Below are positions 1 through 9,064 of a stretch of 33,682 nt of DNA, one piece after another. This DNA comes from Chloroflexota bacterium. GTDB taxonomy: Bacteria; Chloroflexota; Anaerolineae; UBA2200; JACIWT01. The stretch is taken from assembly GCA_014360825.1 (NCBI GenBank), contig JACIWT010000021.1:1-33682 (forward strand), in the 5' to 3' direction. Under the pieces are notes generated by a model. That model did no database searches. It worked only from the letters and a program-made list of their open reading frames with translations, and was not told the DNA's origin. The first letter of the stretch is position 1. Every line of letters starts with the position of its first letter. Both the position numbers and the translations under genes were made by a program.

Positions 1-1
1 T

Positions 2-154
2 CCAGCGTCCATATCGCTCCGGTTCTAAAGTGTTCAGATCCACTCCGGCCAATTCTAATACTTTCTGTACGTATTGAGAATATCCATACCCCAGAAACTG
101 TATAGTATGTCCTGGACACCGTGCAGCCCCCGTTTGACTTTTCTGGCGTTTGTG
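2..154 (-). other. possible partial reading frame running off the left edge
   Basis: On the minus strand one frame is open from just below a stop at 155-157 to the window edge. It contains a plausible stretch, GYGYSQYVQKVLELAG, followed by an acidic/aromatic segment. There is no ATG, GTG or TTG in the first half of the frame. If it is real it is therefore either a decayed gene or one with an unusual start; the main body would lie outside the window. Plus-strand frames here are also open over similar lengths, so this is weak. I do not recognise the protein. Confidence 0.22.
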
Positions 155-161
155 CTATACT
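134..161 (+). promoter_or_regulatory. sigma70 promoter for the small RNA
   Basis: TTGACT at 134-139 and TATACT at 156-161 are separated by 16 bases, so transcription should start near 168. There is no open frame with a ribosome binding site downstream. A hairpin-rich stretch and a terminator follow instead. Confidence 0.65.
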
Positions 162-167
162 GGCATT

Positions 168-296
168 GACATTAACAAACGAAAAGCCCTGGCGCTTGAG
201 TTAGAAGCCCAGGGCGTGGCGTCGGTGGGATGGACACCGAACGCAAGGGGAATTGTAGCAGAAGCCCTGTTTGGTGTCAAACCGACGGGGCTTTTT
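168..296 (+). ncRNA. candidate structured small RNA or orphan attenuator
   Basis: The stretch between the promoter at 134-161 and a T-rich terminator holds three hairpins. P1 pairs GCCCTGG (186-192) with CCAGGGC (209-215). P2 pairs TCGGTG (222-227) with CACCGA (235-240), extended by GCG/CGC (219-221/242-244), and has the seven-base loop GGATGGA. P3 is the terminator (262-293). Competing pairings exist: CAGGGC (210-215) fits GCCCTG (264-269), the 5' arm of the terminator; GTCGGT (221-226) fits ACCGAC (281-286); ACACC (234-238) fits GGTGT (273-277). This 1:2 plus 3:4 versus 2:3 layout resembles attenuators. It does not match tmRNA, SRP RNA, 6S RNA, RNase P or T-box signatures known to me. The function is unknown. 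Confidence 0.5.
262..296 (+). terminator. intrinsic terminator of the small RNA
   Basis: AAGCCC (262-267) pairs with GGGCTT (288-293), an inner GTTTG/CAAAC stem (269-273/278-282) closes a GTGT loop, and the hairpin runs into five T residues (292-296). Confidence 0.7.
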
Positions 297-401
297 GGTT
301 TGCTAAAATAGAGCAATGGCCTTGGCAATAAACAATCGGTCAAGTTAACAACATAGGCTACAACTGGTAGTGGTTATTGGGGCTATCGGCACTACGTATT
401 G

Positions 402-473
402 TATGGGATGTCTCAGCGGCAGAGCAGGGGACTCATAAGCCCTGGGTCACTAGTTCAAATCTAGTCGCCGCCA
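402..473 (+). pseudogene. decayed tRNA-Met/Ile2 (CAT anticodon)
   Basis: The 3' two thirds look like a tRNA: D-loop AGCGGCA, anticodon loop CTCATAA (CAT at 434-436), variable segment GGGTC, a perfect T arm (ACTAG-TTCAAAT-CTAGT), 3' acceptor strand CGCCGCC (466-472) and discriminator A473. CCA is not encoded. The 5' acceptor strand should be near GGCGGCG, but 402-408 read TATGGGA, giving only two Watson-Crick pairs of seven. The D stem also has a 10-25 mismatch, and the anticodon stem has A opposite G at 31-39. The 5' end has been lost or replaced, so I call it a relic. It could be an attachment-site remnant or an assembly junction. Confidence 0.6.
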
Positions 474-490
474 TTGCTTGTGTTTCTGAC

Positions 491-530
491 AAAGCGCCTA
501 CTACCTGTAGTGGTAGAAAGGCGCTTTTCT
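491..530 (+). terminator. intrinsic terminator
   Basis: AAAGCGCC (491-498) pairs perfectly with GGCGCTTT (520-527), an inner CTACC/GGTAG stem sits inside, and the hairpin is followed by a TTTTCTTT tract. It lies just 3' of the tRNA relic and isolates the sulfur operon from upstream transcription. Confidence 0.75.
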
Positions 531-554
531 TTCACCACAAGACTATTGGTCAAT

Positions 555-589
555 TTGGAATTTTGCAAAATTAGGAGTAAATTACTCCT
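555..589 (+). promoter_or_regulatory. probable promoter overlapped by two adjacent perfect palindromes
   Basis: A possible promoter has TTGGAA at 555-560 and TAAATT at 578-583, 17 bases apart. AATTTTGCAAAATT at 559-572 is a perfect 14-base palindrome. Directly next to it, 573-589 (AGGAGTAA-A-TTACTCCT) is a perfect 17-base palindrome covering the -10 region. This placement is typical of operators for dimeric repressors. The regulator is unknown. A hairpin (CCGTGTGGC 663-671 with GCCAACACGG 680-689) lies later in the leader. Confidence 0.45.
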
Positions 590-713
590 GATTAGAGTCT
601 GCTTTTTGAGAGGAATCAGGGTTTATCAAAAGTGGCCTGGGAAAGAACAACAAGATCTTTTCCCGTGTGGCCGCTTATAGCCAACACGGCAGAAACGATG
701 GAGAGAAGTACTA

Positions 714-1877
714 ATGTTTAACAAAGTAATCTATTTCGATAACGCCGCCGCGACCCGGTTGGATGAGCGAGTTCTGGAAGCAATGAAACCGTACTTCTTT
801 GACCTCTACGCTGTAGCCACCTCGCAGTTCGGCTACTCCCTGGGTGTGGATGCACGGGACGCATTAGACAACGCGCGGGCGCAGATTGCTGCGGTCCTTG
901 GAGCGAGTCCGGAGGAGTTCATCTTTACCTCTGGCAGTACAGAGTCCAGCAACCTGGCTATCAAGGGAGTGGCCTCGGCGCTGGCGGAGAAAAAGGGCCG
1001 CCACATTGTGACCAGCCCGATCGAGGATTTCCCGGTGCTCCACAGCGCCCGGGCACTGGAGCGGCAGGGTTTTCGGGTGACCTACGTGCGAGTGGACGAG
1101 ACCGGACGGGTGGACCTCAATCACCTGCGAGAATCTATCACGCCCGAGACCATATTGGTCTCCATTCAGGCAGCCAACCAAGAGATCGGCACTTTGCAGG
1201 ACCTGAAGGCCATCGGTGAGATTTGCCGGGAGAAGGGGACGCTCTTCCACACCGATGCCACTCACACTTTTCCGCGCCTACCCCTGGACGTGCGGGAGAT
1301 ACCGGTAGATCTGGTCACCGTCTCGGCCCATACTATCCACGGGCCGAAAGGGATTGGCGGGCTGTATGTGCGCAAAGGGACCCCCATTCGCAAGTGGATG
1401 GATGGTGGCTTCCAAGAATTCGACCTGCGGGCTGGGGCGGAGGACATCCCCAGTGCAGTGGGCTTCGCCAAGGCTGTGGAACTGGTCACGCCAGAGGAAA
1501 CAGCCCGTCTGCAGAGAATGCGCGATCGGCTGATCGAGCGGCTGTTGGCGATCCCACACACCCGCCTCAATGGCCATCCAGTCCACCGTCTGCCGCACAA
1601 CGCCAACGTCTCCTTCCGCTTCGTCGAGGGTGAATCGCTGCTGCTCCACCTGGATATGCGCGGCTTCGCTGTCAGCACTGGTTCCGCTTGTTTCAGTCGC
1701 TCCCTAGAAGCCAGCCACGTCATTCTAGGCATCGGTGGCGACCATGAACGCGCTCACGGCTCCGTCCGCTTCACCTTCGGCCGCTACAACCAAGAGGAGG
1801 AGGTAGATGCTGTGGCGGAAGCAGTCGCCGAGATCGTGGCAGAACTGCGAAGGATTAGCCCGCTGGGGAAAGAATAA
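714..1877 (+). CDS. NifS/IscS-family cysteine desulfurase homologue lacking the PLP lysine
   Basis: The protein is 387 residues, a class V aminotransferase fold alignable with NifS/IscS throughout. It keeps the phosphate-binding GSTES (74-78), Asp181, the catalytic-loop cysteine (STGSACFSRS, Cys326) and the substrate-binding RFTFGR. In NifS/IscS the PLP Schiff-base lysine is the K of SAHK or SGHK before hxGPKG. Here the motif reads SAHTIHGPKG, with an ACT codon for Thr207. The PLP-stacking His (EH in IscS) is Asp105, the Gln of DATQ is His184, and GTEN reads GAED. It may therefore be a non-PLP or pseudoenzyme member, or carry an assembly error at Thr207, though four linked changes argue against error. 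It starts the operon with IscU, TusA and the nucleotidyltransferase. The RBS GGAGAGAAG precedes ATG714. Confidence 0.85.
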   Translation: MFNKVIYFDNAAATRLDERVLEAMKPYFFDLYAVATSQFGYSLGVDARDALDNARAQIAAVLGASPEEFIFTSGSTESSNLAIKGVASALAEKKGRHIVTSPIEDFPVLHSARALERQGFRVTYVRVDETGRVDLNHLRESITPETILVSIQAANQEIGTLQDLKAIGEICREKGTLFHTDATHTFPRLPLDVREIPVDLVTVSAHTIHGPKGIGGLYVRKGTPIRKWMDGGFQEFDLRAGAEDIPSAVGFAKAVELVTPEETARLQRMRDRLIERLLAIPHTRLNGHPVHRLPHNANVSFRFVEGESLLLHLDMRGFAVSTGSACFSRSLEASHVILGIGGDHERAHGSVRFTFGRYNQEEEVDAVAEAVAEIVAELRRISPLGKE

Positions 1878-1924
1878 CGATTTGAGAACAGCAAGAAAAC
1901 GACGCAACGAACAAGGAGGTTAAG

Positions 1925-2560
1925 ATGCCGTTACCCTATAGTGAAGTTGTGATGGAACATTTCCGCCACCCGCGCAATGTGGGGCGGATCGAGGATGCCG
2001 ATGCCAAGTCGGTCGAAGGAAGCCCGGCCTGCGGGGACATGGTGGCTGTCTATCTGAAGGTGGACCCCGAGACCAAGCGCATCACGGATATCAAGTTCGA
2101 GTCCTATGGATGTGCCTCTAATATCGCTACTGGCTCCATCATCACCGAGTTAGCCAAGGGAAAGACGCTGGAAGAGGCCAAAGCGATCACGTGGCAACAG
2201 GCCTCAGAAGCGTTAGGCGGGTTACCGCCGATCAAGACGCACTGCTCTGTGCTAGCGGTGGATGGGCTACGGGCAGCAATCCAGAACTACGAGGAGCGTC
2301 ATGGCTTGGTCAAGGAGCGTATGCCCACAACGGTCGAGGAAGTGCGCAGACGCTTGAAGCACGTGATGAACCCGATGTCCGGGCTAGATCTGGTGCGCAC
2401 CAAATTGGTCCAAGATATTAAGGTCAGCGAGGGAACGGTGCGCGTAGTAATTGACCTGCCCGCCGATCACCAATTTGCCGCCACAATCCGTGAAGATATT
2501 ACAGAAAAGGTGGGGCACCTGTGGGATGTGAAGCAAGTCGTGGTAGAGTTTACAGAGTAG
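1925..2560 (+). CDS. IscU/NifU-type Fe-S scaffold fused to a DUF59/MIP18 domain
   Basis: This 211-residue protein is longer than IscU (about 130). Residues 1-130 are IscU-like with all cluster ligands: Cys36 and Asp38 in PACGD, Cys63 in YGCAS, and His106-Cys107 in KTHCS. Residues about 140-211 (VRRRLKHVMNPMSGLDLV onward) resemble the DUF59/MIP18 domain found in SufT, PaaD and MIP18 proteins, which act in Fe-S maturation. A GAGG ribosome site (AACAAGGAGGTTAAG) precedes ATG1925. It lies 47 bases after the desulfurase homologue and 10 before tusA. The scaffold domain looks functional, unlike its partner, so sulfur may come from another desulfurase or from TusA. The DUF59 assignment rests on sequence appearance. 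Confidence 0.88.
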   Translation: MPLPYSEVVMEHFRHPRNVGRIEDADAKSVEGSPACGDMVAVYLKVDPETKRITDIKFESYGCASNIATGSIITELAKGKTLEEAKAITWQQASEALGGLPPIKTHCSVLAVDGLRAAIQNYEERHGLVKERMPTTVEEVRRRLKHVMNPMSGLDLVRTKLVQDIKVSEGTVRVVIDLPADHQFAATIREDITEKVGHLWDVKQVVVEFTE

Positions 2561-2570
2561 AGGTGGAACT

Positions 2571-2834
2571 ATGGCCAAGATCGAAGTGAATACTAAAGAG
2601 CCGACCTGCCCCATAGCGAACATCATCGTGGACTGTCGGGGGCAGACGTGCCCCGTGCCCTTAGTGGAAATGCGCAAGGCGGTACGCCGCGCCTCTCCGG
2701 GCGACGTCATCGAGGTGGTTGGCACTCACCCGGCTTCGAAAAAAGAGATCCCGATGGCTGTCGCAGCGTTGGGGCTGGAATTGCTAAGCGTGGAGGGGAC
2801 GGACACCGATTGGAAAATTCGCATTCGGCGCTGA
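2571..2834 (+). CDS. tusA: TusA-family sulfurtransferase
   Basis: The 87-residue protein has the TusA hallmark DCRGQTCPVPLVEMRKA, with the persulfide cysteine at Cys27 of the CPVP motif. A short N-terminal tail carries a further Cys13-Pro. TusA proteins carry sulfur as a persulfide in the cytoplasm from a cysteine desulfurase to acceptors such as TusD/DsrE complexes, molybdenum cofactor synthesis or Fe-S assembly. The RBS is AGAGGTGG before ATG2571. Its position between the scaffold and the nucleotidyltransferase, with a DsrE-like protein 1.7 kb downstream, suggests a sulfur relay. The symbol denotes family, not proven orthology. Confidence 0.9.
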   Translation: MAKIEVNTKEPTCPIANIIVDCRGQTCPVPLVEMRKAVRRASPGDVIEVVGTHPASKKEIPMAVAALGLELLSVEGTDTDWKIRIRR

Positions 2835-2841
2835 AGAGGTA

Positions 2842-3327
2842 ATGATCGATCCCGCTCATCTTGTTGTCCTACGTAAGATATACATCCGTTTGCGTAATAG
2901 CAATGTGAATTGGGCACTTACCGGTAGTTTTAGTCTGGCTTTGCAGGGCGTGCCCGTTCAAGTCCATGACATTGATTTACAAACGGATGAGGCAGGAGCC
3001 TATGAGATCGAGCGCCGCTTTGCCGAATTCGTGATCCAGAAGGTGCATTTGTCTCCTGCGGAGAGAATCTGCTCACATTTCGGTGCCCTGATGATGGATG
3101 GGATCAAAGTAGAGGTGATGGGTGATGTTCGGAAACGGCGCGAGGATGGAACTTGGGAGGAGGCTGAGGATTTGGAGCGCCTCAAACGGGTGGTAGAGGT
3201 CGAGGGAATGCAAATACCAGTTCTGTCTTTGGACTACGAGTACCAAGCGTACCTGGCGCTGGGCCGGATTGAAAAGGCAGAGATGCTGCGAAAGTGGTTA
3301 TATGAAGACGTGAACCGCCAGACATGA
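2842..3327 (+). CDS. small nucleotidyltransferase-fold protein
   Basis: The 161-residue protein has a minimal nucleotidyltransferase signature: GSFSLALQG (Gly28-Ser29) followed by DIDL (Asp43, Asp45), and an acidic third position near Glu91 in IKVEVMGD. This resembles MNT or lincosamide-type nucleotidyltransferase folds, which move NMP to protein, RNA or small molecules. No HEPN partner gene is next to it, so it is not an obvious MNT/HEPN toxin-antitoxin pair. ATG2842 follows the tusA stop by seven bases with AGAGG between them, so it is almost certainly translated with the sulfur operon. Substrate unknown; AMPylation of a carrier or an operon partner is conjecture. Confidence 0.7.
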   Translation: MIDPAHLVVLRKIYIRLRNSNVNWALTGSFSLALQGVPVQVHDIDLQTDEAGAYEIERRFAEFVIQKVHLSPAERICSHFGALMMDGIKVEVMGDVRKRREDGTWEEAEDLERLKRVVEVEGMQIPVLSLDYEYQAYLALGRIEKAEMLRKWLYEDVNRQT

Positions 3328-3425
3328 CACGGGAATATAACCTGCGAAGCATCGGGCAATGTGGACCACCCCAACTCTCGGTGATATGCTGACTAGCGAT
3401 GGCGAGACGGTTTAGGGAGGAATCA

Positions 3426-4439
3426 ATGACCAGAGTCCATATTATTGCTACCGGTGGCACCATTGCTATGGCCTACGATGAGAACACCAGTCGATTCATG
3501 CCGGCGCTCAGCGGCGCGGATTTCCTGCAACGACTGCTCAGCGAGGCAGGCCCCGGCCTGCCCCTTACCTCCGAGGAATACGGGCCCCTGCCCAGCAGCC
3601 ACTTCACCGTTGAACACCTGTGGGGCTTACGCGAGCGCGTGGCTGCAGCGCTGGCCGAGCCGGATGTGGACGGCGTGGTGCTGACCCACGGCACGGATAC
3701 CCTTGAGGAGACGGCCTACTTGCTGGATCTGACCGTGCCTGGGGACAAGCCGATAGTGCTCACCGGGGCTATGCGCGTCGCTTCAGAACCCGGCTACGAA
3801 GGGATTGCCAACTTGTTAGCGGCGGTGCGTGTGGCGATCAGCGCTGAAGCACGGGGGTTGGGTGCGCTGGTGGTGATGAACGACGAGGTGCACGCCGCGC
3901 GCGATGTGACCAAGATGCACAGCCAGAGTATAGATGCGTTCCAGTCGCCGTTTTGGGGGCCGTTGGGTCGGGTGGAACCCGATCGCATCGTGATCACAAG
4001 GCGGGTGCAGCGAGAGTTGCTTGCTTGTACGCGCCTGGAGCCAAGCGTGTACCTGCTGAAACTGGCAATGGGCATGGATGCCGAGTTGCTACGCCACGCT
4101 GTGGTTCTGGGTGCGCGAGGTGTAGTCATCGAGTCCTTCGGCGGCGGACGGGTACCACCCTGGTGGCTACAGGCCATCGAGGAAGCCATCGCCCATGGGG
4201 TAGCCATCGTCATCACCACACGTTGCCCAGCGGGACGCATCTATGACCAGTATGGCTATGTGGGCGCGTACCACGATCTGATAGGCGCAGGTTGCATCTT
4301 CGCCGAGGGACTGAACGGCCCCAAGGCGCGCCTGCGCCTGATGGTCGCTCTGGGCGTGGCGCGAGACCTGCAAGAGACGAAGAGATTATTCACCGGGCAG
4401 GGACAACGCACACCCTCAGATGCCCTGATGCACAAATGA
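3426..4439 (+). CDS. L-asparaginase (type I/II fold), cytoplasmic
   Basis: The 337-residue enzyme hydrolyses asparagine to aspartate and ammonia. The first catalytic threonine lies in ATGGTIA (Thr12), the second pair in THGTDTLEETAY (Thr90-Asp91), and Lys163 lies in RDVTKMHSQ. There is no signal peptide, so it should act in the cytoplasm. ATG3426 is chosen because GGGAGG lies eight bases upstream; an in-frame ATG at 3399 has no such site. It is 98 bases after the nucleotidyltransferase, with no clear terminator between. Glutaminase side activity cannot be excluded. Confidence 0.92.
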   Translation: MTRVHIIATGGTIAMAYDENTSRFMPALSGADFLQRLLSEAGPGLPLTSEEYGPLPSSHFTVEHLWGLRERVAAALAEPDVDGVVLTHGTDTLEETAYLLDLTVPGDKPIVLTGAMRVASEPGYEGIANLLAAVRVAISAEARGLGALVVMNDEVHAARDVTKMHSQSIDAFQSPFWGPLGRVEPDRIVITRRVQRELLACTRLEPSVYLLKLAMGMDAELLRHAVVLGARGVVIESFGGGRVPPWWLQAIEEAIAHGVAIVITTRCPAGRIYDQYGYVGAYHDLIGAGCIFAEGLNGPKARLRLMVALGVARDLQETKRLFTGQGQRTPSDALMHK

Positions 4440-4533
4440 GAATTTGATACGCGGAGTTCCTGCGCTTCCGGATCGCCTGAGCGAGAGCCAGGGCTTTACC
4501 TTTGGAGAATACAAGACATAATGGGAGGACAAA

Positions 4534-4971
4534 ATGAGCCCGAGTGATGTAACGCCTGAGCGCGTGACAATCATATTGCACAGCGGCGACATGGACAAAG
4601 TGTATAGCGCGCTGATCATCGGCAATGGGGCGCTGGCGATGGGGATGGAGGTCTCGATTTACTTCACCTTCTGGGGCCTGCAACGATTGCAGAAAGGTGG
4701 GTTAGAAAAGGGGCCACTCTCCAAAATGCATATGCTGGGCCTGGGCAAGTGGATGATCGGGCAGCGGATGAAAAAGGCCAACGTGGCGTCATTGGAGAAA
4801 CTAATGGCCGACTTTAAAGAATTAGGCGGCAAGATCATCGCCTGCGAGATGACGATGGAGATTATGGGCCTCCGCCGTGAGGACTTACGTGAGGACTTGA
4901 TTGACGAGTATGGGGCAGTGGGGACTTACATACAGGAAGCGCGCCAGTCAGCAGTTACACTCTTTATCTAA
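4534..4971 (+). CDS. DsrE/DsrF-like (DrsE_2) sulfur-relay family protein
   Basis: The 145-residue protein begins with a beta strand and nucleotide-fold-like segment (VTIILHSGDMDKVYSAL), has a hydrophobic middle with MSIYFTFWGL-type strand, and a conserved cysteine (Cys104) in KIIACEMTMEIMGL. This arrangement is typical of the DsrE/DrsE_2 family, whose cysteine can bind a persulfide passed on by TusA. The RBS GGGAGG precedes ATG4534. The nearby tusA supports a sulfur-transfer role, but the substrate is not known, and many members are uncharacterised membrane-peripheral proteins. Confidence 0.85.
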   Translation: MSPSDVTPERVTIILHSGDMDKVYSALIIGNGALAMGMEVSIYFTFWGLQRLQKGGLEKGPLSKMHMLGLGKWMIGQRMKKANVASLEKLMADFKELGGKIIACEMTMEIMGLRREDLREDLIDEYGAVGTYIQEARQSAVTLFI

Positions 4972-4979
4972 GGGGTGCA

Positions 4980-5084
4980 ATGAGGAGGGCGCTACCATGG
5001 AGGAGAGGAGTTAAAGGACTGAAGCGGCCACCCAAGAGGTTTTTTGGCGAATGTGCACATTCTCGCTTTCAAACCGGCTCTTGA
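4980..5084 (+). CDS. possible very small basic ORF
   Basis: A 34-codon frame starts at ATG4980, four bases after AGGGG that overlaps the dsrE-like stop. It would encode an Arg/Lys-rich peptide (MRRALPWRRGVKGLKRPPKR, then a Cys-containing tail). It could be translated by coupling with the gene before it, but its length is within chance expectation. Confidence 0.15.
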   Translation: MRRALPWRRGVKGLKRPPKRFFGECAHSRFQTGS

Positions 5085-5118
5085 CTGGGTTCGACCGCAG
5101 ATCTTTTGGAGGATGGAG

Positions 5119-5580
5119 ATGATGCTAAGAGAAAGTGCTTTGGCACCTGATTTCACCCTGGAGGCAGACGATGGCCATGGAGTAAGTCTGTCAGACTATC
5201 GCGGGAAGAAAGTTGTGCTCTATTTCTATCCCAAGGACAACACCGCCGGTTGCACCGCAGAGGCGTTGGCCTTTCGCGATGAGTATCCGAGGATCATTGC
5301 AGCCAGTGCTGTAGTGCTGGGGGTTAGCCCCGACAGTGTCGAGTCGCATAAGAGGTTCAAAGCCAAGCACAACCTGCCTTTCACGCTTCTAAGCGATCCT
5401 AACCATCAGGTTGCTGAAATGTACGGCGCGTGGGGAGAAAAGAAAATGTATGGCCAAACGCGCATGGGTGTTATCCGATCCACTTTCATCATTGATGAGG
5501 AGGGGAGGATCGTCAAAATATTCCCCAAGGTGGCAGTCAAAGGGCACATACAGGAAGTCTTGACTGCTTTGAATGCATGA
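5119..5580 (+). CDS. bcp: Bcp-type peroxiredoxin (thiol peroxidase), 1-Cys form
   Basis: The 153-residue thioredoxin-fold peroxidase reduces hydroperoxides. The peroxidatic Cys45 lies in DNTAGCTAEA after YFYPKD. In most Bcp/PrxQ proteins a resolving cysteine sits five residues later (GCTxEAC); here that position is Leu50, so it is a 1-Cys form needing an external thiol. An upstream TTG at 5044 would add 25 residues unlike the family. ATG5119 or ATG5122 is preferred because GGAGG at 5108-5112 is correctly spaced. A second peroxiredoxin follows 89 bases downstream. Confidence 0.9.
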   Translation: MMLRESALAPDFTLEADDGHGVSLSDYRGKKVVLYFYPKDNTAGCTAEALAFRDEYPRIIAASAVVLGVSPDSVESHKRFKAKHNLPFTLLSDPNHQVAEMYGAWGEKKMYGQTRMGVIRSTFIIDEEGRIVKIFPKVAVKGHIQEVLTALNA

Positions 5581-5669
5581 CTGGCGCTGAAATAGTTCGT
5601 CAGTGACTAGGAATGACCTCGCACAGCGAACTCTGCATTTCACAGGATTTTCTATGACAGGAGGCATAG

Positions 5670-6134
5670 ATGGCATACGATATTGAAGTTGGGGACAAGG
5701 CTCCCGATTTCACCCTCAAGGATCAGAGCGAGAAAGAAATCGCTCTCGGCAACTTCAAGGGGCAAAAGGTGATCCTCTCCTTCCATCCTCTGGCCTGGAC
5801 GAGCGTCTGCACAGCGCAGATGCAAGATTTGGAGAGGCACAAAGGGGATTTCGCCCGGATGAACGCCGTTGCCGTAGGGATCAGTGTGGACAGTGTTCCA
5901 TGCAAGAAGGCCTGGGCCGAAGCCATCGGCGTTAAGGAGACCCCCCTCTTGGCGGACTTCTGGCCCCATGGAGGTGTTGCCAAGTCATACGGCATTTTCC
6001 GCGAGCGGAACGGTTTCAGTGAACGGGCTGTTTTCATCTTAGATGAGGAAGGGGTGGTCCGGTTCAAGAAGATTTATCCCATCAGAGAGATACCGGACAT
6101 CGGAGAGATTCTGAGAGCGACAGCCAGATTGTGA
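5670..6134 (+). CDS. AhpE-like peroxiredoxin/redoxin
   Basis: The 154-residue protein is another thioredoxin-fold peroxidase. The peroxidatic cysteine is Cys47 in HPLAWTSVCTAQM, resembling AhpE-type (FPLAFTG-C) enzymes more than Bcp. A further cysteine, Cys78 (VDSVPCKKAW), might act as resolving residue, but this is not the classical position. The RBS GGAGG precedes ATG5670. It faces the minus-strand aldo/keto reductase at its end. A tandem pair of peroxiredoxins beside sulfur-transfer genes fits protection of persulfides and Fe-S clusters from oxidation; that link is inference. Confidence 0.88.
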   Translation: MAYDIEVGDKAPDFTLKDQSEKEIALGNFKGQKVILSFHPLAWTSVCTAQMQDLERHKGDFARMNAVAVGISVDSVPCKKAWAEAIGVKETPLLADFWPHGGVAKSYGIFRERNGFSERAVFILDEEGVVRFKKIYPIREIPDIGEILRATARL

Positions 6135-6228
6135 GACGGGATAAGTACAGAGTCGGTCCGCATAAGCGCGAGGCGGCTGCCATTTCCCAATATCCTATGT
6201 TCTCGCGTGAGCCCGGCCGTGCAGCCGA

Positions 6229-7374
6229 TCACCCATGTGGTCCATTCGCTTGCTCACCAAGCGTCGCTGCTACCTCTTTCAATTGTTCCACGATGGGAAT
6301 GCCTTGCGGGCACTTGCCCTCGCATTCCCCACACTCAATGCAGGCCTCAGCCTTTAATCCAGGAGTTATTTCCCCAGGGCGGCCCAGGCGTGCGTAGGCA
6401 TCACGGGCGAAGTCACGCAATCCGTACACGCGGTAGTAGTTCATGTACTCGAAGTTCTTAGGGATATTCACGTCGTTGGGGCAGGGCATGCAGTAGCCAC
6501 AGCCGGTGCAGTAGAGGTCGGCTAATGCCTTGCTCTCGTCGAGCATCCGCCTCATGCGGTCCAATTCATCTGCAGTGAGTGGGTCTTCACGGCTAGCAGT
6601 GGCGACGTTTTCCTCCACCATCTGGATGGTGCTCATACCAGAGAGGGCAACATCCACGCCGGGATGGGCCAACACGAAACGTAAAGCCAGGGCCGGCGTG
6701 CTGGTGAAACTGTCGGGCAGCAGGGCGCGGATCTGGGGCGAAAACCCAGCCAGCCGCCCCCCGCCGACAGGCCCCATGATGACCACACCCAACCCCACCT
6801 TGTGAGCGTGGGTGATCGCATTCTCGTTGACGCGGTCTAGGATATTGTACTGAACTGTCATACTCTCAAAGTTTCCTGTGTCAACGAGGCGGATGAGGTT
6901 CTCTGGTGTATCGTGGAAAGAAAAACTGATGTGACGGATGAGACCCTCCTCCTTCGCCCGGCGCGCCGCGTCCAAAGGACCATTGGGTATGTCAATGCGT
7001 TCCTCGTAAGTTTTCCAGTCAATGCCCCACATATGGTAGAAATCAATATAATCCACATCGAGTTTCCGTAGCGAGATCTCCAATCGCTCACGCCAATGGT
7101 CGCCAGAAGCATCCTCGATGGGGTTCTTCGTGGAAATGTAGACTTTGTCGCGCCAGCCCTTGATGGCCCTGCCCAGGATAATCTCACTCTCTTTGTTGCA
7201 GTAGTATGGAGCGGTGTCGAAATAGTTCACGCCCAACTCATAGGCCCTCTGGATAATGGGGATGGCCCGATCCTCATCTACGTGTTGCTCATCAGGAGTC
7301 ATGGGCAGACGCATTGCACCGAAACCCAGGACAGAGACAGTCGCTCCAGTCTTGCCGAAAGTCCGATAACGCAT
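6229..7374 (-). CDS. aldo/keto reductase with C-terminal 4Fe-4S domain
   Basis: The 381-residue protein has an N-terminal AKR barrel (MRYRTFGKTGATVSVLGFGA; catalytic region NYFDTAPYY, then STKN and YHMWG) to about residue 280. A ferredoxin-like tail follows with CTGCGYCMPCP and CIECGECEGKCP, enough for two [4Fe-4S] clusters. Such fused reductases act in the cytoplasm on unknown carbonyl substrates with electron transfer through the clusters. AGAAAGG lies upstream of the ATG. The gene is transcribed alone toward the peroxiredoxin genes; no strong hairpin separates the two ends (6135-6228). Confidence 0.9.
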   Translation of the reverse strand: MRYRTFGKTGATVSVLGFGAMRLPMTPDEQHVDEDRAIPIIQRAYELGVNYFDTAPYYCNKESEIILGRAIKGWRDKVYISTKNPIEDASGDHWRERLEISLRKLDVDYIDFYHMWGIDWKTYEERIDIPNGPLDAARRAKEEGLIRHISFSFHDTPENLIRLVDTGNFESMTVQYNILDRVNENAITHAHKVGLGVVIMGPVGGGRLAGFSPQIRALLPDSFTSTPALALRFVLAHPGVDVALSGMSTIQMVEENVATASREDPLTADELDRMRRMLDESKALADLYCTGCGYCMPCPNDVNIPKNFEYMNYYRVYGLRDFARDAYARLGRPGEITPGLKAEACIECGECEGKCPQGIPIVEQLKEVAATLGEQANGPHG

Positions 7375-7406
7375 TTCTCAGAACCTTTCTCCGTACCGCA
7401 ATGGTT

Positions 7407-7436
7407 TTGACAAAAACCCGTTGGCAGGTTTACAAT
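7407..7436 (+). promoter_or_regulatory. sigma70 promoter of the membrane protein gene
   Basis: TTGACA at 7407-7412 and TACAAT at 7431-7436 are separated by 18 bases. Transcription would start about 20 bases before ATG7461. Confidence 0.6.
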
Positions 7437-7460
7437 GGCCTCGCTTTCAGCGGAGGGTAA

Positions 7461-8267
7461 ATGAGTCGAAAAGAGCAGATCGGTACCACCGTCAGCCTTA
7501 TTCTCATAGGCATCGTGCTCTCAGTCTTTGTGGATTCTCCTGTGCGTCCTCTTTCCATCCCTGGATTGCTGAACCCCGTGTTTCTGTCAGGTCGCACACT
7601 TTTCGTGATCATTCTAATTGCTCTGGCCTGTGCAGGGCAGGAAATCATTATCTGGAGCGATTCTCACACGCAGGAGGCGAGACGAAACAACAGTTTCGTC
7701 CATTGGATCTTACCTGCCGCGCTTACGATGGCCGCCGCTCTCATTTTCCCGCGACTCACTGGTCTCCGCGAGCAAGTCGCCGGCCTGGCGGTGGTTGGTG
7801 TGTTTCTCGCCGCGACAATGGAGGGTGAATATCTACTCGCCCAACCGGGCGCTAATAGGTGCGAATGGTTGCCCCTGTTGATGGACACATTCACCTACAG
7901 TATAGCGTTTCTCCTGTTTGCCCTCACTCTGGATGCTCTAAAGCCCTCGGTGGGACAGGCTCTCGCTATTGCAGCGGTGACTGGAGTGCTCTCCTTGCGC
8001 TTGTTCCCCCCACGCCGGGATGGGACTCGCGCCTGGGGGGTGGTGGGGTTGGGCATTCCCACAGCATTGGCGTCGGCCATACTGCCCGCGTTACCCCTGA
8101 ACGTCCCCTCGGCGGCTACCCTCTTGGTGGCAATCATGTACATCTCTGTAGGCTTGGCGCGTGCGCATCTTTATGCTACTCTTACACGCCGCGTGCTCAC
8201 CGAGTACGGTCTCCTTTTGCTTGCTACCGTTTTCCTGATACTCACGTTCTCTGCGCGGATGCGATGA
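7461..8267 (+). CDS. polytopic membrane protein of unknown function
   Basis: The 268-residue protein is almost wholly hydrophobic, with about eight or nine probable membrane helices (for example VSLILIGIVLSVFV near the start and LLLLATVFLILTF at the end). It has no motif I recognise. CGGAGGG lies upstream of ATG7461, and a clear promoter stands at 7407-7436, so it is a real single-gene unit. It converges with the metalloprotease gene, leaving six bases between the two stops. Similar proteins may be a Chloroflexota-specific DUF family, which I cannot verify. Confidence 0.75.
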   Translation: MSRKEQIGTTVSLILIGIVLSVFVDSPVRPLSIPGLLNPVFLSGRTLFVIILIALACAGQEIIIWSDSHTQEARRNNSFVHWILPAALTMAAALIFPRLTGLREQVAGLAVVGVFLAATMEGEYLLAQPGANRCEWLPLLMDTFTYSIAFLLFALTLDALKPSVGQALAIAAVTGVLSLRLFPPRRDGTRAWGVVGLGIPTALASAILPALPLNVPSAATLLVAIMYISVGLARAHLYATLTRRVLTEYGLLLLATVFLILTFSARMR

Positions 8268-8273
8268 GCCACA

Positions 8274-8639
8274 TTACACCCCCAGTTCGTGCAGTCGTTC
8301 ATCGCTAATGCCAAAATGGTGGGCTATCTCATGCATTACTGTCCGCCGAACCTGTTCCCGGATGGCTTCTGGCCGACGGTGATAGATCTCAATAGGTCCC
8401 TGATAGATGACAATGCGATCGGGCGGGACTAAATTGTAACCTCGGCCCCGCTGGGTTAGGGGGACGCCCTGGTACAAACCAAAAAGCATTCCCGAGGGAT
8501 GAAGACCCGCTTGCCTCAACTCCGCCGGCGTAGGCCACCACTCGACTACCACAGCCACATTACTCAACTTCTCTCGGAAATGGGGTGGCAAAGAATCCAG
8601 TGCTTCACTTACCAGTCGTTCAAACTCCGCCTTGTTCAT
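8274..8639 (-). CDS. small zincin metallopeptidase-family protein
   Basis: The 121-residue protein has the metal-binding motif HEIAHHFG near its C terminus followed by GISDERLHELG, as in the minimal metallopeptidases of the PF06262 (zincin_1) family. The N-terminal part (VSEALDSLPPHFREKL) also fits that family. Function in cells is not well established; proteolysis has been shown only for some members. It is downstream of dodecin on the same strand, separated by 130 bases that contain two hairpins. Confidence 0.85.
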   Translation of the reverse strand: MNKAEFERLVSEALDSLPPHFREKLSNVAVVVEWWPTPAELRQAGLHPSGMLFGLYQGVPLTQRGRGYNLVPPDRIVIYQGPIEIYHRRPEAIREQVRRTVMHEIAHHFGISDERLHELGV

Positions 8640-8659
8640 AACCCTTCACATACAGATGC

Positions 8660-8689
8660 AGCAGGGGCAGCCAATAAGCCGCCCCTGCT
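8660..8689 (-). terminator. strong hairpin between dodecin and the metallopeptidase
   Basis: AGCAGGGGC (8660-8668) and GCCCCTGCT (8681-8689) form a nine-base-pair stem with a 12-base loop. There is no T run on either side, so it may be an attenuating or processing hairpin and not a classical terminator. Confidence 0.4.
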
Positions 8690-8727
8690 GGGGTCCACGC
8701 TCTCTCGAATCGCAATTTGCACCGCGA

Positions 8728-8759
8728 TCACGGAAGGGAATCCATGCACCCTCCCGTGA
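8728..8759 (-). terminator. hairpin just after the dodecin stop
   Basis: TCACGG (8728-8733) pairs with CCGTGA (8754-8759), with an inner AGGG/CCCT stem (8735-8738/8749-8752). It begins 11 bases past the dodecin stop and probably limits readthrough or stabilises the short mRNA. No T tract follows. Confidence 0.4.
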
Positions 8760-8769
8760 ATCCGATCGG

Positions 8770-8982
8770 TTAGGCCCGCACCTCCTCTACCACGAAGGCG
8801 ACCTTTACGTTAGCGCGATAGGAAGTAATCTTGCCGTTCTGCACAACGGCTGTCCAGCCAACTACCTCCACGCCGCGGATGCCGCGTACGGTCTTGGCTG
8901 CCTCTTTCACCGCGTTGTTGGCCGCCTCCTCCCAACTGGTCGGTGACTCGCCAATGAGTTCAATGACCTTCACCACCGGCAT
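8770..8982 (-). CDS. dodecin family flavin-binding protein
   Basis: The 70-residue protein matches dodecin along its length: VKVIELIGESPTSWEEAAN, a helix with VKEAAKTVRGI, then VVGWTAVVQNGKITSYR and a final strand VKVAFVVEE. Dodecins form dodecameric shells that store or buffer flavins. The tryptophan of VGWTAVV corresponds to the residue that stacks on flavin in the archaeal type. The gene has its own promoter (9065-9093) and a GGGGGTG ribosome site. It diverges from the S1-domain gene. Confidence 0.93.
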   Translation of the reverse strand: MPVVKVIELIGESPTSWEEAANNAVKEAAKTVRGIRGVEVVGWTAVVQNGKITSYRANVKVAFVVEEVRA

Positions 8983-9064
8983 GATCTACACCCCCTTTCT
9001 GAGGATTTCTTCACAAGGTGACCCCACGCCTATACCTGTCCCAACAAGCGAGACTTTCGCTTTG

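Follow-up and report, generated by a model that had tools for sequence, protein, structure and literature searches.

Lysine-less relatives of IscS are already on record. In Methanosarcina acetivorans, according to one report, IscS1 (MA0808) is without the essential PLP-binding lysine, its loop reads STGSACFS and its partner IscU1 (MA0807) is enlarged, at 24.2 kDa. The two genes share their cluster with four others whose function is unknown, and IscS1 itself ended up in inclusion bodies, so that no assay of it was made (PMC7585200). The canonical enzyme of Escherichia coli offers the natural yardstick. It is reported to bind both IscU and TusA (PMC2854127), and elsewhere the single mutants H104Q, Q183E and K206A are each reported to have lost desulfurase activity, K206A while retaining some PLP (PMC9978102). 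A wider question is by what route anaerobes, methanogens among them, assemble Fe-S clusters if their sulfur comes as sulfide and not as cysteine. Repression of SufBC in M. acetivorans had no sulfur-source-specific effect (PMC10500019).

An IscS homologue without the PLP lysine

Our starting point was the window, the whole stretch of DNA that was analysed, 33,682 nucleotides from a Chloroflexota bacterium. Near its beginning lies a gene for an IscS-like protein, which we call IscS*, followed by genes for a scaffold, IscU*, and for two sulfurtransferases:

714..1877, + strand: IscS*, an IscS/NifS homologue without the PLP lysine (Thr207) and with the loop Cys326 kept; its fold is matched by IscS/NFS1 and by A. 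fulgidus IscS
1332..1334, + strand: the ACT codon of Thr207, where the Schiff-base lysine would be
1925..2560, + strand: IscU*, NifU_N (residues 5-126) fused to FeS_assembly_P/DUF59 (residues 138-205)
2571..2834, + strand: TusA sulfurtransferase, with Cys27 in CPxP
2842..3327, + strand: nucleotidyltransferase-like gene (PF10706), inside the cassette here but not conserved in it
3399..4439, + strand: asparaginase-like gene, likewise inside the cassette here but not conserved in it
4534..4971, + strand: DsrE2-like sulfurtransferase with a single invariant Cys104

Two peroxiredoxin genes, one PrxQ-like and the other for a second AhpC/TSA protein, come after the DsrE2 gene (5044-5580 and 5670-6134). 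Upstream of IscS*, on the + strand at 409-465, is a tRNA-like stretch with CAU at the anticodon position and no matched acceptor stem; it scores 27.0 bits against the Rfam tRNA model (gathering score 29), and ARAGORN found no tRNA in 1-9000.

IscS* is an ORF of 387 amino acids with an ATG start, and its motif reads SAHT(207)IHGPKG, just as the original prediction had it. The residues that prediction singled out, Asp105, Asp181, His184, Ala242 and Cys326, are where it placed them, and of the substrate arginines it described as kept, the one for the carboxylate is indeed there, as Arg352 (Arg354 in E. coli). Membership of the IscS fold and sequence family is plain from matches to PF00266 (248 bits) and TIGR03402 (449 bits) in Pfam/NCBIfam, and from a predicted model that superimposes on IscS/NFS1 with a TM of about 0.9 (Foldseek), the model being a monomer that is weak in loops 229-241 and 325-332. 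The protein nevertheless falls under the NCBIfam equivalog cut-offs, at 449 vs 530.75 bits for NifS and 385 vs 643 bits for IscS. A. fulgidus IscS, in which the lysine is missing too, is among the closest solved sequences.

Set beside E. coli-type IscS, His104 has become Asp105, Gln183 His184 and Lys206 Thr207, and the phosphate Thr is lost (Ala242). Thus, of the features that mark a PLP-dependent cysteine desulfurase, IscS* lacks the Schiff-base lysine, His104 and Gln183 and has the mobile loop cysteine. Because all three positions at which E. coli IscS lost activity are replaced, and replaced throughout the clade described below, we infer that IscS* is not a cysteine desulfurase. The loss of this chemistry, as originally predicted, is strongly supported by comparison, and the protein would be expected to have neither bound PLP nor desulfurase activity. 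The host genome has a canonical IscS, with an SAHK motif, on contig C14 and a CsdA-like protein on C16, which answers the question of a second, canonical desulfurase and rules out a genome devoid of any. SUF may be reduced in this genome, in which we saw just one match to the SufB/D core, weak and partial (4e-15; G000:C8:7327-7677).

A clade and a cassette in bacteria and archaea

The original prediction treated the missing lysine as a local oddity. IscS* in fact belongs to a defined clade that spans bacteria and archaea and has its own fixed pocket, and Methanosarcina IscS1 had already been noted as lacking the lysine (PMC7585200). We assembled 96 lysine-less sequences, 80 from loci in a bacterial and archaeal genome collection and 16 from Methanosarcinaceae loci, with a few genomes shared between the two sets. 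Homologues with threonine at position 207 proved to be the rule: Thr occurs in 78 of the 96, Leu in 15, Val in two, Met in one and Lys in none, and in the five nearest relatives tested the threonine codon is ACC or ACG rather than the ACT of the window. Identity to IscS* runs from 66 to 88% within the clade (67-88% for the 80 loci) and reaches at most 53% for other IscS homologues, leaving a gap between. Lys, His104 and Gln183 are present in all 21 IscS paralogues of lower identity, 20 of which come from genomes of carriers and one from the genome of the window. Maximum-likelihood analysis unites the sequences without the lysine in one branch (support 100/100). A. fulgidus IscS lies outside it, among lysine-bearing sequences (90/62), so its loss of the lysine looks independent, with moderate support.

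Constraint on the clade is strong. About 100 columns are invariant and the ORFs are intact; Asp105, Phe106, Asn155, Gln156, Asp181, His209, Lys227, Asp230, Cys326, Phe327 and Arg352 are the same in all 96 sequences, and His184 in 95. The predicted retention of the persulfide-carrying loop is thereby borne out at Cys326. Lys227 is new, canonical IscS having mostly Pro there. The residues that would hold the PLP phosphate are loosened, with Ser at position 204 in 61 of the 96 and, at position 242, Thr in only five and mostly Leu or Val. The clade has lost the PLP desulfurase residues and yet remains under this constraint; apparently, then, the fold of IscS serves a function that does not hinge on desulfuration.

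The company that IscS* keeps is equally constant. The adjoining scaffold and TusA, described in advance as intact, do keep their key residues: IscU* has Cys36, Asp38, Cys63, Cys107 and LPPIK (= LPPxK), and TusA its Cys27. Profile searches around 81 loci, the window included, found IscU* at 79, TusA at 73 and DsrE2 at 67, with all four cassette genes at full length in 62; the four-gene set is present at each of the 16 Methanosarcinaceae loci. The order is IscS*-IscU*-TusA-DsrE2 in many Chloroflexota and TusA-DsrE2-IscS*-IscU* in Dehalococcoidia, Thermodesulfobacteriota, "Deltaproteobacteria" bins, Atribacterota and archaea, with median intergenic gaps of 15-55 bp. Contig ends account for some of the incomplete loci. 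Nine with enough contig are still incomplete, mostly in Chloroflexota that have no DsrE2 nearby (L011, L014, L016, L025, L032, L034, L039, L067 and L085 miss DsrE2 and/or TusA), and the partners may thus be elsewhere or dispensable. Three Chloroflexota loci (L024, L032 and L034) have an extra scaffold-profile match upstream of IscS*. The relay cysteines are kept in TusA (Cys27, 100%) and DsrE2 (Cys104, 100%), and those of IscU* nearly so (Cys36 97%, Cys63 100%, Cys107 95%). In Mantel comparisons of protein distances, IscS* varies together with each of its three partners (r 0.72, 0.68 and 0.76; highest permuted value 0.175). Beyond the four genes, none was widely common to the loci among the flanking genes.

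Carriers are scattered: five of 201 sampled Chloroflexota genomes, 37 of 61 Methanosarcinaceae, one of 26 Methanotrichaceae and, counting one partial match, six of ten Methanofastidiosaceae. That carriers are so dispersed among anaerobic lineages while the cassette has stayed mostly whole suggests that it was transferred as one unit. A canonical IscS is present as well in most carriers, among them the window's genome, and such cells are therefore not bound to a route without cysteine. The sole Methanothrix carrier, whose genome may be incomplete, shows no canonical copy, and among its relatives the 40-51% type is all there is; we do not count this carrier as evidence. A search at E 1e-50 of the six Methanofastidiosaceae carriers, whose genomes are at least partly draft, turned up no second homologue at the level of IscS.

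Other genes adjoin the cassette here and there. HcyBio genes, for sulfur-incorporating homocysteine synthesis, or FdhD are its neighbours in a deltaproteobacterial bin and in some of the Dehalococcoidales; HcyBio genes lie upstream at L042, L043 and L076, and FdhD adjoins the cassette at L080 (431-1258). HcyBio occurs in 17 of 34 carriers against 17 of 201 sampled Chloroflexota, two sets too different in phylogeny for us to read anything into the contrast. We considered this sulfide-dependent synthesis as a constant partner and rejected it, HcyBio being absent from the Anaerolineae carriers tested.

A proposed sulfur flow through IscS* and the alternatives

What might such a protein do? The best explanation, and one to which we would give an even chance, is that IscS* is a PLP-free hub that passes sulfane sulfur from TusA and DsrE2, by way of Cys326, to IscU*. 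We infer this route from the gene set and its conserved cysteines. TusA and DsrE2 would bring sulfane sulfur to IscS*, the source being sulfide, polysulfide or thiosulfate rather than cysteine; Cys326 would carry the sulfur and deliver it to the co-encoded IscU* scaffold, where Fe-S clusters would be assembled. The original reading, of a sulfur-relay scaffold or a protein with another cofactor, is partly supported, its relay side strengthened by the DsrE2 gene, a partner it had not named, and by the recurrence of the cassette in bacteria and archaea. In favour of the hub, six of the ten Methanofastidiosaceae genomes carry IscS* as the only IscS-level homologue found. Two facts fit a pure relay least, the invariant Arg352 and the new invariant Lys227: a relay would not obviously need Arg352 or the equally invariant Asp181, and Lys227 could in principle serve PLP. 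The traffic in E. coli also tells against it, since sulfur there normally passes the other way, from IscS to TusA (PMC2854127).

In the main rival Cys326 carries no sulfur and instead ligates the cluster as it forms on IscU*, with free sulfide as the sulfur and TusA and DsrE2 serving a neighbouring but separate step. It has a precedent, since A. fulgidus IscS (Lys to Asp199), one of the closest solved sequences noted above, is reported to be without desulfurase activity and to give a cysteine ligand to the IscU cluster, a role also suggested for M. acetivorans IscS1 (PMC7585200). The ligand set of IscU* (Cys36, Asp38, Cys63 and Cys107) is intact, and IscU* is the most constant neighbour of IscS*, at 79 of 81 loci. 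Ligand donation leaves the recurrent linkage to TusA and DsrE2 without explanation, however, and the A. fulgidus protein stands apart from the clade in the tree, albeit with moderate support, and we consider this rival unlikely, though to be taken seriously. Less likely again is that the remodelled pocket holds another ligand for a different sulfur reaction, be it PLP or PMP (with no lysine, or through Lys227), a metal, or a small carboxylate held by Arg352. Asp105, Phe106, Gln156, Lys227, Asp230, Arg352 and His184 are conserved more tightly than Ser204 and position 242, which would fit such a pocket, and some PLP stays with the K206A mutant of E. coli (PMC9978102); on the other side, the PLP-phosphate contacts are eroded and the loops in question (229-241 and 325-332) are weak in the model.

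Sulfur could also run the other way, with IscS* taking it from canonical IscS and handing it to TusA and DsrE2 for thiolation or for molybdenum-cofactor (FdhD-like) maturation, IscU* having been co-opted. The E. coli direction of transfer (PMC2854127), the presence of canonical IscS in most carriers and the FdhD gene at L080 all point this way. But no canonical IscS-level homologue was found in the Methanofastidiosaceae carriers and the genes flanking these loci include no conserved thiolation gene, so that we hold reverse flow to be improbable. A selenium-specific relay, with a YedF-like TusA and a selenium partner, is disfavoured still more strongly. It would draw on the weak scores of TusA against YedF models and on SelD, which has one in-frame TGA (probably selenocysteine) and occurs in 15 of 31 carriers, the window's genome among them (G000:C8:66863-67798). 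The archaeal carriers examined have the same cassette and none has SelD over the cut-off, which removes selenium as the common denominator. Finally, the loss of a catalytic residue might bring to mind a decaying pseudogene or a sequencing error. This is refuted by the 96 relatives, by the synonymous Thr codons of the nearest ones, by intact ORFs 67-88% identical to IscS* in bacteria and archaea, by their single 100/100 branch and by the hundred or so invariant columns.

A lysine-less IscS kept nearly unchanged across anaerobic bacteria and methanogenic archaea, beside the same sulfur-handling genes, suggests that Fe-S clusters are made from non-cysteine sulfur. We entertain, a little more tentatively than the hub itself and at somewhat under an even chance, a distinct cross-domain Fe-S system in which a PLP-free IscS receives sulfide or other inorganic sulfur via TusA and DsrE2 and clusters are formed on the NifU_N/FeS_assembly_P scaffold. 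If this is true, ISC-type assembly would run without cysteine as the sulfur donor. The cassette is a concrete candidate for sulfide-fed Fe-S assembly, and it occurs in the genetically tractable Methanosarcina.

Relation to described systems

Canonical IscS and NifS, for which we took E. coli IscS, NifS and the host's own copy on C14, share with IscS* the fold (TM about 0.9), the loop cysteine, an IscU partner and the residues Asp181, Asn155 and Arg352; their Lys206, His104, Gln183 and phosphate Thr are all replaced or lost in IscS*. A. fulgidus IscS (PDB 4eb5, 4eb7 and 4hvk; D199K mutant 4r5f) comes closer in that it has the IscS fold, no Schiff-base lysine, the loop cysteine and an IscU with which it works. 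It differs in having Asp at the lysine site, where the clade has Thr or Leu, in keeping His98, and in having Ser at the phosphate Thr position and Leu where IscS* has Arg352. It looks to be of another lineage, the 100/100 clade excluding it and the tree placing it with lysine-bearing sequences (90/62).

Sulfurtransferases of the DsrE and TusA types are also encoded together in the sulfur-trafficking modules of sulfur oxidisers, such as dsrE3A-dsrE2B-tusA of Metallosphaera, with genes for a heterodisulfide-reductase-like complex on their flanks (PMC4175335); in our loci they go with IscS* and IscU* instead. The minimal Fe-S systems MIS and SMS are described as ancient by inference, and SMS can use sulfide; a cysteine desulfurase belongs to MIS, SMS is made up of SmsC and SmsB and has none, and TusA and DsrE are not mentioned for either (PMC12192291). 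Our literature search, which covered few subscription papers, found no description of a TusA-DsrE2-IscS*-IscU* cassette, of a clade across bacteria and archaea or of its fixed pocket.

What was known already is the lysine-less IscS1 of M. acetivorans with its enlarged IscU1, whose published features IscS* shares: IscS* too has no PLP lysine, an STGSACFS loop and an enlarged IscU partner. The linkage to TusA and DsrE2 and the cross-domain clade go beyond the accessible part of the published account (PMC7585200). Our Methanosarcinaceae loci, matched to MA0808 by these published features rather than by sequence alignment, have the same loop as the window's IscS*, and like it Thr207 and a cassette of all four genes.
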